Below, one piece after another: positions 1 through 59,911 of a stretch of DNA of 64,000 bases. The stretch comes from an uncultured Bacteroidota bacterium (GTDB lineage Bacteria > Bacteroidota > Bacteroidia > Flavobacteriales > Flavobacteriaceae): positions 1 to 64,000 of the forward strand of contig CABZJM010000007.1 of assembly GCA_902526075.1 (NCBI GenBank), in the 5' to 3' direction. The position numbers were made by a program, and so were the translations under genes. Numbering within the stretch: position 1 is the stretch's first letter; each line of letters starts with the position of its first letter. The notes under the pieces are model-generated. The model worked only from the letters and a program-made list of their open reading frames with translations, did not search any database and was not told the DNA's origin.

Positions 1-440
1 TTTAAATCATAATATATAATTTCATTTCCAATTAACTTTGTTATAGATGAATATGTTGGATATCCAGGATTTGGTATTAAGACTTTATCATCTTCAGAAA
101 GAAAAGACATTGAAATATGAAAAATTCCTTCTTTACTTCCAATTAGTGGTAAAATTTCAGATTGATAATTTAAATCACAATTATATTGTAACTTATAAAA
201 ATTTGATATTTCCTTTCTAAATTTTTCAACTCCGATATAGCTTTGATATTTATGCGCTCCAGCAACATTTAACGAATCTTTTAATTTTTTTATTACTAGT
301 GTTGGAGGAGATAAATCTGGACTCCCAATTCCAAGGTTTATAATATCTTCTCCAGAGTCAATTAAAGACTTTACCTCTCTCAGCTTGGAGGAAAAATAAT
401 ACTCACTCAATTCTTCTATTCTTTTTGAAAATTCAATCAT
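1..440 (-). CDS. Class I/II aminotransferase, N-terminal part (cut by window edge)
   Basis: The first ~146 residues of a PLP-dependent fold-type I aminotransferase are visible; the rest lies beyond the left edge. It starts MIEFSKRIEEL and contains NLGIGSPDLSPP, HKYQSYIGVEKFRKEI, LIGSKEGIFHIS and LIPNPGYPTYSS, the usual substrate-entry and cofactor-phosphate regions of the aspartate/LL-diaminopimelate aminotransferase group. The active-site lysine is not in the window. The ATG overlaps the end of pheA by 8 bases (ATGATTGA), so the two are translationally coupled. In Bacteroidota an aminotransferase next to pheA, followed by tyrA and a DAHP synthase gene, is common, so transamination of prephenate/phenylpyruvate or 4-hydroxyphenylpyruvate is the likely job. 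The family is certain; exact substrate is inference. Confidence 0.88.
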   Translation of the reverse strand, partial: MIEFSKRIEELSEYYFSSKLREVKSLIDSGEDIINLGIGSPDLSPPTLVIKKLKDSLNVAGAHKYQSYIGVEKFRKEISNFYKLQYNCDLNYQSEILPLIGSKEGIFHISMSFLSEDDKVLIPNPGYPTYSSITKLIGNEIIYYDL

Positions 441-1260
441 CTTTAGAGTTTTTGTATTCACCTAATACTTTAAAATCTTTAGCCATAATTTCAATTATAG
501 ATTTAGCCTTAAAATAATCTTCTAATTTATCAAAAGTGAGATCAACAAAAAATGAGTATCTCCATGGAGTTTGAATCGTAGGCATTGATTGAATCTTTGT
601 TAAATTTAACTTACAATCACTTAAAACATTTAAAATTGCTGCCAAGCTTCCCCTTTTATGATCCAATTCAAATTTAACTGAGGCCTTATTAAAATTTAAG
701 TTTTTAGTTGGACCTTTTTTTTGAAGAATAACAAATCTTGTTTGATTCTTTTTTATCGTTTGAATATTAGCATTTATAATATCCAGCCCATAAATTTTTG
801 AGGCTAAATCACTTGCAATTGCACCTAAACCCTTTATTTTATTTTCAGAAATTTTCTTTGCTACCATAGCCGTATCCTTATCCTCAATTAAAACAATATC
901 CGCATTATCTTTAAAAAAATCTCTGCATTGAAGAAGAGCCATGGGATGAGACTGAACTTCTTTTATATCCTCAATTGATTGACCTTTTAATACCATCAAA
1001 TTATGTGTTATTTGAAGATAATACTCACCTACAATATTTATTCCATATTCATCAATCAATGCATAATTAGGAATAATAGATCCAGCAGTAGAATTTTCTA
1101 TTGCCATTATGGCATAATCTATTTTATCATTAAATAAATTTAAAATCAATTCTTCGAAGGAAAGATATTCAATCAAATTAATATTTTCTTCAAAATAGTT
1201 ATTTGCAACTATGTGATGAAATGAACCCTTTATTCCCTGTATACCTATATTTTTTTTCAT
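433..1260 (-). CDS. pheA: Prephenate dehydratase
   Basis: Converts prephenate to phenylpyruvate for phenylalanine synthesis. About 275 residues: a periplasmic-binding-like catalytic domain (NSTAGSIIPNYALI; catalytic Thr-Arg-Phe in NQTRFVILQ near residue 185) followed by an ACT domain (from FELDHKRGSLAAIL). It is a monofunctional enzyme without a chorismate mutase domain. The Phe-binding ESRP motif of the ACT domain reads QSMP and the GALV motif reads GSLA, so the sensitivity to phenylalanine may differ from the E. coli type. I place the start at ATG 1260 (MKKNIGIQGIKGSFHH), because the in-frame ATG at 1290 lies inside the upstream terminator hairpin. That ATG directly follows the terminator T-run, leaving no room for a Shine-Dalgarno site. 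First gene of the operon, probably under leader-peptide attenuation. Confidence 0.95.
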   Translation of the reverse strand: MKKNIGIQGIKGSFHHIVANNYFEENINLIEYLSFEELILNLFNDKIDYAIMAIENSTAGSIIPNYALIDEYGINIVGEYYLQITHNLMVLKGQSIEDIKEVQSHPMALLQCRDFFKDNADIVLIEDKDTAMVAKKISENKIKGLGAIASDLASKIYGLDIINANIQTIKKNQTRFVILQKKGPTKNLNFNKASVKFELDHKRGSLAAILNVLSDCKLNLTKIQSMPTIQTPWRYSFFVDLTFDKLEDYFKAKSIIEIMAKDFKVLGEYKNSKDD

Positions 1261-1287
1261 AAAAAAAAAGTCTCGAAATTTCGAGAC
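1261..1287 (-). terminator. Intrinsic terminator of the pheA attenuator
   Basis: On the minus strand the perfect palindrome GTCTCGAAATTTCGAGAC (1287 to 1270) is followed by nine Ts (1269 to 1261) and then directly by the pheA ATG. It lies between the Phe/Tyr-rich leader peptide and pheA, so it is read as the attenuator terminator. A competing helix is possible: GAGGCUGU (1324 to 1317) can pair over 8 bp, with three G-U pairs, with AUGGUCUC (1290 to 1283), which includes the left arm of the terminator. Confidence 0.85.
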
Positions 1288-1323
1288 CATAAATAATTTT
1301 GATTAGTTATATTACAACAGCCT

Positions 1324-1383
1324 CTACATCCTTTTTGAATACAAGAAGTAAAAGAAGTTAGAGTTGTAGTTAAAAAATAGCAT
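1324..1383 (-). CDS. Phe/Tyr-rich leader peptide of the pheA operon
   Basis: A 19-codon reading frame, ATG at 1383 and TAG at 1326-1324, encodes MLFFNYNSNFFYFLYSKRM. Eight of 19 residues are aromatic (5 Phe, 3 Tyr). The frame ends about 36 bases before a perfect terminator hairpin that abuts pheA. This is the arrangement of ribosome-mediated attenuation: stalling at Phe or Tyr codons when the charged tRNAs are scarce would leave the region around the stop codon free to form the antiterminator. The presence of both Phe and Tyr codons fits an operon that serves both amino acids. The frame and composition are seen directly; the mechanism is inferred from known attenuators. Confidence 0.85.
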   Translation of the reverse strand: MLFFNYNSNFFYFLYSKRM

Positions 1384-1437
1384 TTTTAAATATTGAATGG
1401 TCTAATGTAAATAATATTTATTAAAAAAGAAAATTAA

Positions 1438-33348: not shown

Positions 33349-34746
33349 TTATAATTTATTTGCCATTTTAATTGACTTTGTTAACGCATTTAATTTATTA
33401 TAAACCTCTTGTAATTCATTATTTTCATCAGACTTATCTACGATACCTGCACCTGCTTGCCAATACAAAAAGTTATTTTTACTTAAGAAAGTTCTTATCA
33501 TTATTGCATGATTAAAATCCCCATTAAAACCTAATATACCAATGGCGCCACCATAATAACTCCTGTTAGTTTTTTCGTACTTTTCAATTAGAGTCATAGC
33601 CATGTGTTTTGGTGCTCCCGAAAGTGTTCCGGCAGGGAAAGTATCAGCAATTATTTTTAAATTTTTATCATTGTTTTCTAGCTTACCGGTTACTTTACTC
33701 ACTAAATGAATAACGTGAGAGAAATATTGAACTTCTTTGAATTTTTCAACTTTAACAAACTCACAATTTCTACTTAAGTCGTTTCTGGCCAGATCTACTA
33801 ACATTACATGCTCACTTCCTTCTTTTGGATCATTTAACAATTTTTCAGCAAGTAGTTTGTCCTCTGTTTCATTTCCAGTTCTTTTGAATGTTCCGGCAAT
33901 AGGGTGAATTTCAGCTAGCTTTTCCTTTATTACCAATTGGGCCTCGGGAGAGCTACCCAAAATTTTATAATCTCCATAATCAAAATAAAATAGGTATGGT
34001 GAAGGGTTTATACTTCTTAATGCTCTGTATACATTGAAATCATCTCCTGAAAATTTTTGAGAAAATCGTCTTGATAAAACTAGCTGAAAAACATCTCCCC
34101 TTTTACAATGATTCTTAGCAAAATTGACCTGTTTGATAAATTCTTTATCAGTTAGATTTGAGTTTATCTCATCAATGGAACTAAACTTGTAATTACTTGA
34201 GGTCGCTATTTTAATAAGTTGATATATATTATCAATATTATTTTCGTCATTTAAAGAATGACAAAAAATATATGCCTCGTTCTTAAAATGGTTAATTGCA
34301 ATAATATTTTTGTAGATACCATAGTACATTTCTGAAATTTTCATAGAATTATCTTTCATACTAATTTCTACATCCTCAAAATATTTTACTGCATCATAAG
34401 AAGTATATCCAAAAAGGCCATTATTAATAAATGGTAGATCAGATAATTCAACATCAAATCGATTAATAAAATTTTGTAGTTCGTAAATTAAATTTTCTTT
34501 AGAACAAGGAGTCGAATGGTTTGAATTATCTGGAAATTTAGTTGAAAGAAGATTTTCAAAAACTTCAAAAGATGCAATTTGATTAAAACATATATATGAG
34601 AAGCTATTACTATTAGAATTGTAATCACTACTTTCCAACAGTAAGCTATTTGGGTATTTATCTCTTATTCTTAGGTAAACACTAACAGGGGTAATAGTAT
34701 CTACCAAAAATTTCTTTTTGTATGTATTTAATCTAAATTTTTTCAT
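33349..34746 (-). CDS. trpE: Anthranilate synthase component I
   Basis: Converts chorismate to anthranilate. About 465 residues from ATG 34746 (MKKFRLNTYKKKFLVDTITP). An N-terminal regulatory part carries LLLESSDYNSNS, matching the LLES tryptophan feedback motif, so the enzyme is probably Trp-inhibited. The chorismate-binding domain has FQLVLSRRFSQKFSGDDFNVYRALR, IAGTFKRTGNETEDK, the HVMLVDLARNDLSR region, FPAGTLSGAPKHMAMTLIE and GGAIGILGF. An upstream ATG at 34773 is in frame but lies in a hairpin, so I reject it. First structural gene of the operon, controlled by the WWW leader peptide and terminator upstream. Confidence 0.96.
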   Translation of the reverse strand: MKKFRLNTYKKKFLVDTITPVSVYLRIRDKYPNSLLLESSDYNSNSNSFSYICFNQIASFEVFENLLSTKFPDNSNHSTPCSKENLIYELQNFINRFDVELSDLPFINNGLFGYTSYDAVKYFEDVEISMKDNSMKISEMYYGIYKNIIAINHFKNEAYIFCHSLNDENNIDNIYQLIKIATSSNYKFSSIDEINSNLTDKEFIKQVNFAKNHCKRGDVFQLVLSRRFSQKFSGDDFNVYRALRSINPSPYLFYFDYGDYKILGSSPEAQLVIKEKLAEIHPIAGTFKRTGNETEDKLLAEKLLNDPKEGSEHVMLVDLARNDLSRNCEFVKVEKFKEVQYFSHVIHLVSKVTGKLENNDKNLKIIADTFPAGTLSGAPKHMAMTLIEKYEKTNRSYYGGAIGILGFNGDFNHAIMIRTFLSKNNFLYWQAGAGIVDKSDENNELQEVYNKLNALTKSIKMANKL

Positions 34747-59095: not shown

Positions 59096-59127
59096 AAAGC
59101 TGTCTGATTTAGACAGCTTTTTTTTTT
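59096..59127 (+). terminator. Intrinsic terminator after the second ompH
   Basis: AAAGCTGTCT and AGACAGCTTT form a 10-bp stem around GATTT, followed by a run of Ts, directly upstream of murI. It should separate ompH expression from murI, at least in part. Confidence 0.9.
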
Positions 59128-59134
59128 AAAAGCT

Positions 59135-59911
59135 ATGAAAAATCCTATTGGTATATTTGATTCGGGTATTGGCGGTATTTCAATTTTAAAAAAATTAAAA
59201 CAGTTATTACCAAATGAAAATTTTATCTACCTTGCAGATAATCGAAATTGCCCATATGGAAGTAAGTCTAAAAAAGAGATAATTTCACTAAGTAAAAAGA
59301 ATTGTAAAAAATTAATTGAACTTAATTGTAAAATTATAATTATTGCCTGTAATACATCCACAACAAATTCAATTAAGAAACTCAGAGAGATAATTGATAT
59401 TCCAATAATAGGTATTGAGCCAGGTTTAAAGCCTGCAATTCATTATACAAAAACAAAAAATATTGGAATTTTGGCTACCGAAAAAACACTTGGAAGCAAG
59501 CTTTTTTTTGAAACTTTAAATCACAACAGAATTGATGATATTCATATTCATGAACAAATTGGTTATGAATTAGTTAATTTGATAGAAGAAGGTTCACATC
59601 CAAAACAAAATATTCAAGAAATATTGGAAAAATATTTAGTACCAATGATTAATAAAAAGATTGATTGCCTTCTTTTAGGGTGTACTCATTATAATCATAT
59701 AAAAGATATAATTAAGGAAGTCATCCCTGGACACATAAAAATAGTTGATACTATAGCCCCAGTAAATAAACGTATTTTGAGCATACTTAAATCCAATAAC
59801 ATACTAAATAAATACACTCATAAAAGAACTATTAAAATATTCTATAATGGAAAGAAATTATCTAGTAATTACCTAGATCAAGAATATGATTTAAGATATT
59901 TAGAATTTTAA
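59135..59911 (+). CDS. murI: Glutamate racemase
   Basis: Supplies D-glutamate for peptidoglycan. 258 residues with the two catalytic cysteines: IIACNTSTTNSIKKL (about residue 72) and LLLGCTHYNHIKDII (about residue 184). IGIFDSGIGGISILKKL and YLADNRNCPYGSKSKKEI at the N-terminus are canonical. It begins 7 bases after a strong terminator hairpin, so its expression needs read-through or a promoter I cannot see. One base separates its stop from the convergent porP-like gene. Confidence 0.97.
   Translation: MKNPIGIFDSGIGGISILKKLKQLLPNENFIYLADNRNCPYGSKSKKEIISLSKKNCKKLIELNCKIIIIACNTSTTNSIKKLREIIDIPIIGIEPGLKPAIHYTKTKNIGILATEKTLGSKLFFETLNHNRIDDIHIHEQIGYELVNLIEEGSHPKQNIQEILEKYLVPMINKKIDCLLLGCTHYNHIKDIIKEVIPGHIKIVDTIAPVNKRILSILKSNNILNKYTHKRTIKIFYNGKKLSSNYLDQEYDLRYLEF

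Follow-up and report, generated by a model that had tools for sequence, protein, structure and literature searches.

The window, as we call the whole stretch of 64,000 nucleotides analysed here, starts at base 1 of its contig, and the first two genes found in it are read from the minus strand: pheA and, following it, an aminotransferase gene which probably starts at 440 (Table 1). The operon is broken off by the contig end, and the assembly of this genome is 62% complete. The aminotransferase was identified through its homologue at L020:3800-4963, which matches PF00155. The start of pheA at 1260 agrees with the homologues, and the ACT-domain match of the encoded protein is weak (PF01842, 1.6e-05, below its cut-off). 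Upstream of pheA, and on the same strand, an aldehyde dehydrogenase gene has its end at 1438. A further ATG in the pheA frame, at 1290 (minus strand) and located inside the antiterminator arm, opens a 285 aa ORF; it would add 10 residues to PheA by reading through the terminator hairpin, and in the comparison of the genus loci it is not preserved throughout.

Between the two genes are a short leader ORF, a predicted intrinsic terminator and a run of nine Ts. When re-read from the window sequence, the coordinates and sequences of the original prediction proved correct for the leader, in which Phe and Tyr account for 8 of the 19 residues (MLFFNYNSNFFYFLYSKRM), for the palindrome GTCTCGAAATTTCGAGAC (1287-1270, minus strand), for the nine Ts and for the pheA ATG abutting them. 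The terminator scan gives a stem of 1288-1269, and the first T of the run is the last base of this stem. The pairing of GAGGCTGT, from the last base of the stop codon onwards, with ATGGTCTC is also present, as a helix of eight pairs, three of them G-U, with a predicted stability of -6.5 kcal/mol when taken alone.

Table 1. Features of the pheA leader region and the adjoining genes, in window coordinates.
Feature	Position	Strand	Remarks
Aminotransferase gene	1..440	-	Overlaps the end of pheA; truncated by the contig end at base 1
pheA, prephenate dehydratase	433..1260	-	275 aa; ATG 1260-1258; PF00800, 1e-54
T9 run	1261..1269	-	Immediately 5' of pheA; read from sequence
Predicted terminator hairpin (region 3:4)	1269..1288	-	GGTCTCGA-AATT-TCGAGACT; -10.9 kcal/mol
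Putative antiterminator, 3' strand (region 3)	1283..1290	-	ATGGTCTC; overlaps the terminator 5' arm
Putative antiterminator, 5' strand (region 2)	1317..1324	-	GAGGCTGT; first base is the last base of the leader stop codon
Leader ORF	1324..1383	-	19 codons and TAG, MLFFNYNSNFFYFLYSKRM; ATG 1383-1381, TAG 1326-1324
Core control codons, Phe10-Phe11-Tyr12-Phe13-Leu14-Tyr15	1339..1356	-	From the register analysis
Promoter-like box (TAnnTTnG type)	1402..1409	-	TACATTAG; kept across the genus with small changes

The composition of the operon is evident from relatives. At L020 the gene order is pheA, the aminotransferase (PF00155), tyrA (PF02153 and PF20463, with the NCBIfam prephenate dehydrogenase model above its cut-off) and a DAHP synthase/chorismate mutase fusion (PF00793 and PF01817), whose reading frame runs past the end of the locus. 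Of the 75 loci examined, all have an aminotransferase gene after pheA and 68 gave a tyrA match; for most of them the downstream sequence is only 1.5 kb long. Both tyrA and the DAHP synthase are present downstream in all 18 loci whose downstream sequence is 2800 nt or longer, fourteen of them from the genus. By analogy, the operon of the window presumably continues beyond the contig end as it does in its relatives. Joint sensing of Phe and Tyr fits such an operon, because it makes both amino acids and feeds their common pathway.

Regions upstream of pheA were collected at increasing taxonomic distance. In the genus, 17 of the 21 searched genomes held pheA, one of these twice; in the family pheA was found in 130 of 149 genomes, corresponding to 130 of 148 genera with one locus per genus; in the order in 115 of 196 genomes and in the class in 42 of 149, part of the order and class matches being analysed. 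Five of 19 named loci were added, the other 14 being repeats of genus loci. The total is 239 upstream regions, including three repeats (L059 of L034, L073 of L068 and L254 of L209). The genome with two pheA copies (G002, 6% contamination) carries them as closely similar loci, L004 and L019, on separate contigs, and is perhaps a mixed bin.

A call was made when the last 200 nt held an intrinsic terminator with a T-rich tail (at least 6 T in 9 bases) preceded by a short ORF with at least 6 Phe, Tyr or Trp residues amounting to at least 27%; the cut-offs for a strong call were fixed after a first look at the loci, and the same rule was then used on the controls. In a few loci (e.g. L010, L033, L045, L055) the caller picked an upstream start, which lengthens the leader. 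Strong calls were obtained in 204 of the 239 regions (202 of 236 without repeats), compared to 3 of 717 dinucleotide shuffles and none of 53 ORF starts of the window; the latter comprise 52 other ORFs plus pheA read from ATG 1290, where the hairpin comes to lie past the start. The leader-terminator arrangement is not due to chance. These counts, like all others given here except the parsimony count below, ignore relatedness.

All 18 loci of the genus gave a strong call, as did 124 of the 130 genomes of the family set. Beyond the family the count is 28 of 57 loci, the 57 including one repeat, with 17 of 26 families represented. The six loci of the family set lacking a strong call are L054, L106, L152, L168, L176 and L179; L054 has the terminator and 128 nt of upstream sequence only. 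In other families no strong call was obtained for f4 (0 of 9 rows, 8 of them distinct, mostly with divergent PheA), f15 (0 of 3, genomes of 0.6 Mb), f26 (0 of 4), f30 (0 of 2) and f11, f37, f49, f66 and f75 (one locus each), and three families were partially positive (f14 1 of 4, f29 2 of 4, f45 2 of 3). Some of these misses look like weaker versions of the putative attenuator: the leaders of the three in f14 contain 5 aromatic residues, and those of L222 and L232 in f30 (MKLTQTYFWFYPTLSTGG and MQLLNTYFWFYPSPETGG) contain the same number, with a longer terminator stem.

The comparison of relatives that had been proposed as a check on the original prediction found the leader frame and the pairing conserved; the Phe and Tyr codons, terminator, antiterminator and masking geometry are likewise retained in relatives, and the non-conservation that would have spoken against the prediction was not found. 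The genus has 14 distinct leaders of 60 nt, from 16 of its 18 loci. Phe13 and Tyr15 are invariant among these, and positions 11 and 14 each deviate in one of the 14, which is the leader of the window itself (Phe11, Leu14). For this set, in which L010 was trimmed to the 60-nt frame and the 66-nt leaders of L017 and L018 were excluded, pN is 0.23, pS 0.50 and pN/pS 0.47. Taken alone this test is weak, because few sites stand behind pS and the three codon positions have nearly equal numbers of variable sites (13, 12 and 15). Conservation points to a genuine short ORF with codons for the products of the operon. In the family 84 of 124 leaders also have a Trp codon, nearly always one each (86 residues), and 85 of these 86 Trp residues are 12 nt or more from the antiterminator on its upstream side, versus 1954 of 2903 for all residues. 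The leaders of the window's genus contain no Trp codon.

In the genus 100% of the cells of the predicted terminator are paired; in the family alignment 1273 of 1323 cells are paired, with 135 two-sided changes in 148 sequences. The family alignment kept 148 of the 204 loci, leaving out L003-L008 and L019 (near-identical genus members), the block L068-L085, L200 onward and identical stretches.

For the antiterminator the genus and the family have to be considered separately. In the genus 97.9% of the antiterminator cells are paired, versus 35-51% in slid versions, and L008 carries an extra base inserted in region 2. No two-sided changes and no excess over the column-shuffle control were seen in the genus, and this pairing alone does not prove the antiterminator but is only consistent with it. 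The compensatory changes sought in both helices were found across the wider family, and in the antiterminator of the genus there were one-sided changes only. In the larger set the duplex of the terminator 5' arm with the preceding 75 nt beats shuffled sequence (p<=0.05) in 164 of 204 loci (162 of 202 without repeats); in the other 40 of the 204 it is not significant, seven of which belong to the genus (L006, L008, L009, L010, L013, L015 and L018). The arm pairs better with its own upstream region than with the mean of the regions of 40 other loci in 184 of 204 cases.

The terminator arm and its partner also change together as motifs. This was seen in 180 loci having one of six common arm cores, with the partner motif sought in the preceding 65 nt. 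GTCTCG was found with GAGAC or GAGGC (GAGRC) in 77 of 93 loci, GTCCCG with GGGAC or GGGGC (GGGRC) in 31 of 36, GTCCTG with AGGAC or AGGGC in 11 of 17, ATCCTG with AGGAT in 11 of 12, ATCCCG with GGGAT in 10 of 18 and GCCTCG with GAGAC or GAGGC in 3 of 4; mismatched motifs also occur, AGGAT for example being present in 12 of the 93 loci with GTCTCG. Within the family alignment, 874 of 1328 cells of the antiterminator register are paired, with 106 two-sided changes, compared to maxima of 853 and 78 in 500 permutations of whole arms among sequences. Slid registers have 28-54% of cells paired and 28-75 two-sided changes, the one reaching 75 pairing 44% of its cells only. Since the consensus of this alignment also supplied the register, more weight belongs to the permutation and slide controls than to the raw counts. 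RNAalifold was run on the family alignment truncated ahead of the 3' arm and returned no antiterminator. One antiterminator pair is A-U in 69 sequences, G-C in 61, G-U in 17 and unpaired in 1 (n=148). Placed on a PheA tree (FastTree, partial proteins for 96 of the 148 loci, midpoint root, one tie-breaking), a single parsimony reconstruction gives 7 double changes from G-C to A-U, 7 changes to G-U and 1 to unpaired. Judged by these alignments, the putative antiterminator covaries with the terminator arm across the family, and it would form a helix alternative to the terminator and excluding it.

Among the sequence comparisons, the spacing between the aromatic codons and the predicted antiterminator is the sharpest evidence. 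In the 164 loci with p<=0.05, codons were numbered upstream from the base at which antiterminator pairing begins. The aromatic share is 90, 99, 99 and 90% at codons 5, 6, 7 and 8 and drops nearer the antiterminator, to 52% at codon 4, 12% at codon 3 and 2% for both codon 2 and codon 1, though the ORF usually continues; in most relatives the antiterminator begins inside the leader frame and not at the stop. Aromatic residues return at codon -3, which falls within or beyond region 2, in 39% of the loci having such a codon, a return which an attenuator does not need and which counts against it. In 195 of 204 loci (193 of 202 once repeats are removed) the last aromatic codon starts 10-17 nt ahead of the antiterminator, a distance taken from the best duplex of each locus with the non-significant ones included; this compares to a mean of 43% and a maximum of 52% of loci when the antiterminator offsets are permuted between them. 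The standard deviation of the distance to the antiterminator is 2.4 nt for the aromatic codon versus 9.1 nt for the stop codon. In the window Tyr15 starts 17 nt before 1324.

The footprint of a ribosome extends about 12 nt downstream of its A site. Because of this, the boundary at 10-17 nt is the place where a stalled ribosome would just free region 2, and a ribosome at the leader stop of the window would cover the RNA to about 1314; the control codons are thus placed where they would either free or mask region 2. Folding models agree with this. RNA left free from 1328 to the hairpin apex, as behind a stalled ribosome which masks the upstream part, is predicted to form the antiterminator with an inner helix (-8.5 kcal/mol), and RNA free from 1313, with the ribosome at the stop, the terminator alone (-10.9 kcal/mol). 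When folding is modelled from an assumed start at 1398 with no ribosome, a structure internal to the leader, of which the hairpin is only weakly conserved, would occupy region 2. For the whole RNA at equilibrium the terminator is the predicted preference even behind a stalled ribosome; the antiterminator would therefore have to form first, and timing would matter, as it does in other attenuators.

TAnnTTTG is the promoter consensus of Bacteroidota. Before the leader, the relaxed motif TAnnTT[TCA][GA] is present in 189 of 204 loci (shuffled mean 101.6, maximum 112), TAnnTTTG in 50 of 204 (mean 15.9, maximum 27) and TTG-N17-23-TAnnTTTG in 35 of 204 (mean 1.9, maximum 5). In the window, transcription would be expected to start between the box at 1402 and position 1384.

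We read the locus as a ribosome-mediated transcription attenuator which would set expression of the pheA operon according to how much charged tRNA-Phe and tRNA-Tyr is available, and put the probability of this reading at about 0.9. RNA polymerase would start some 10-20 nt before the leader ATG, with a ribosome trailing it through the leader. When Phe or Tyr is short, the ribosome would stall on the aromatic codons with its front edge just before 1324, leaving GAGGCUGU free to pair with AUGGUCUC; the terminator would then not form and the operon would be transcribed. When both amino acids are plentiful, the ribosome would reach the stop codon and cover GAGGCUGU, the terminator would form, and we infer that transcription would end in the T-run before the pheA ATG. 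With no translation the leader RNA could itself pair with region 2, and termination would be favoured again.

The position of the hairpin bears on whether transcription or translation would be regulated. In the window its stem ends 8 nt before the pheA ATG with the T-run only in between, and with starts assigned by homology the distance is 15 nt or less in 91 of the 204 loci, 16-40 nt in 71 and more than 40 nt in 42. Control could then be translational, the hairpin by the start codon hiding the ribosome site and stalling freeing it, and the short distances speak for such an arrangement; the 42 loci with spacing above 40 nt, and the T-rich tail found together with the hairpin in 187 of 198 regions, speak against it. 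As the sole mechanism we consider it improbable and set it aside, but it could still add to termination. The suggestion made earlier that the hairpin may also block initiation of pheA translation is accordingly possible for the window, in a geometry which is not conserved: the contact of the putative terminator with the start codon is a local trait.

A hairpin placed after one gene and before another could also serve the former. The aldehyde dehydrogenase gene is on the same strand, and Phe and Tyr codons are abundant in AT-rich DNA, from which it could be argued that the hairpin is the terminator of this upstream gene and the short ORF a product of base composition. The hairpin is however 150 nt beyond that gene and adjoins pheA; of the 75 loci searched, the 14 from the genus were the only ones in which the upstream gene was matched, while the element persists in other genera. 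Such an ORF is also rare in shuffles, and chance accounts neither for the codon register nor for the covariation. This explanation was set aside because the element is conserved even with a different gene upstream, and we regard it as very unlikely. Just as little credence is given to a T-box or riboswitch, i.e. a leader binding tRNA or a metabolite with an incidental ORF, since, though T-boxes control such genes in Firmicutes, no Rfam family reached its threshold, no T-box covariance model was among the Rfam matches at the locus, and it is the reading frame and the codon register that are conserved.

A ribosome-mediated attenuator at pheA has a well known counterpart in the pheL leader of E. 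coli (Rfam Phe_leader, RF01859), which works on the same principle, with a leader peptide rich in the product and an antiterminator and terminator before pheA, and reads Phe alone. In distinction to pheL, the leader of the window would read Phe and Tyr, with Trp in addition in many relatives, and heads an operon which in relatives holds tyrA and DAHP synthase. The Phe_leader model scores 19.5 bits at the leader of the window, below its gathering threshold of 55. Reading several amino acids of an operon on one leader is known from the thr and ilv attenuators of enterobacteria, which sense other amino acids, none of them aromatic. Attenuation of E. coli pheA, and the thr and ilv operons, are named in PMC1183508. 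In Bacteroidota the comparable leader-peptide RNA is Bacteroid-trp (RF01692), found at trp genes, included in the list of PMC2864571 and, according to its Rfam description, reading Trp; it is absent from the nine Rfam matches at 1200-1500, taken up to an E-value of 10.

The control proposed here is of a known kind and partly anticipated in print. In 2010 leader-peptide systems were described as known only from Proteobacteria and Actinobacteria, with Firmicutes then added (PMC2965389). The view that such a leader on pheA is little described in this lineage has to be corrected, since PMC9723704 reports a structured element 5' of pheA in Flavobacterium psychrophilum, conserved in other genera of the Flavobacteriaceae and having no Rfam match, together with strong clues for leader-peptide attenuation at amino-acid operons of that species. 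The likeness to our element is one of gene and family; the description in that paper gives no leader sequence, no sensed amino acids and no range outside the family. No description of a leader reading Phe and Tyr, or Phe, Tyr and Trp, in Bacteroidota was found in titles and abstract openings, in a search which most subscription journals fall outside, and earlier predictions in this phylum may exist.

For Bacteroidota the previous papers found thus provide an Rfam motif at trp and 5' elements with no stated sensor. To these we add the amino acids which are likely sensed, a range extending into other families of the class, which for this putative element is far wider than in the published descriptions found, the covariation of the helices, and a codon register by which the sensing window is delimited. 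Over about 200 loci this register appears to reveal the footprint of the ribosome from sequence alone, and it predicts which codons do the sensing. Together they would amount to a rule by which Bacteroidota regulate the synthesis of aromatic amino acids. We see about even chances that the usual leader of the family, with several Phe and Tyr codons and one Trp codon inside the sensing window, reflects a single ancestral attenuator, spread throughout the class and sensing Phe, Tyr and Trp on one leader, from which the window's genus would have lost Trp to become a sensor of Phe and Tyr. If true, it would act as a one-site OR gate for the three amino acids over an operon which includes the entry enzyme of the shikimate pathway.

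Other hairpins and leaders are present elsewhere in the window. A strong terminator-like hairpin at 59096-59120 (plus strand) is found 14 nt upstream of an ORF at 59135 (beginning MKNPIGIFDSGIGGISILKK), which we take to be glutamate racemase-like; no short ORF was found before this hairpin. The hisG gene, sought for a His leader, was not found in the 62% of the window's genome covered by the assembly. On the minus strand, the stretch 34923-34815 holds a short ORF with three consecutive Trp codons, MKKLQLNMWWWKHKIFIS, and a terminator at 34839-34815, and is followed by a TrpE-like gene (PF00425) starting at 34746; between this terminator and the trpE-like start there is a second hairpin at 34777-34760, GGGGGTGTTAAAGCCCCC, with no T-run. 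Bacteroid-trp matches at 34943-34830 with 39.8 bits, under its threshold of 49, and the MKKLQLNMWWWKHKIFIS region is likely a Trp attenuator related to it. With this second candidate attenuator in the window, control of this kind may not be unusual in such small genomes.
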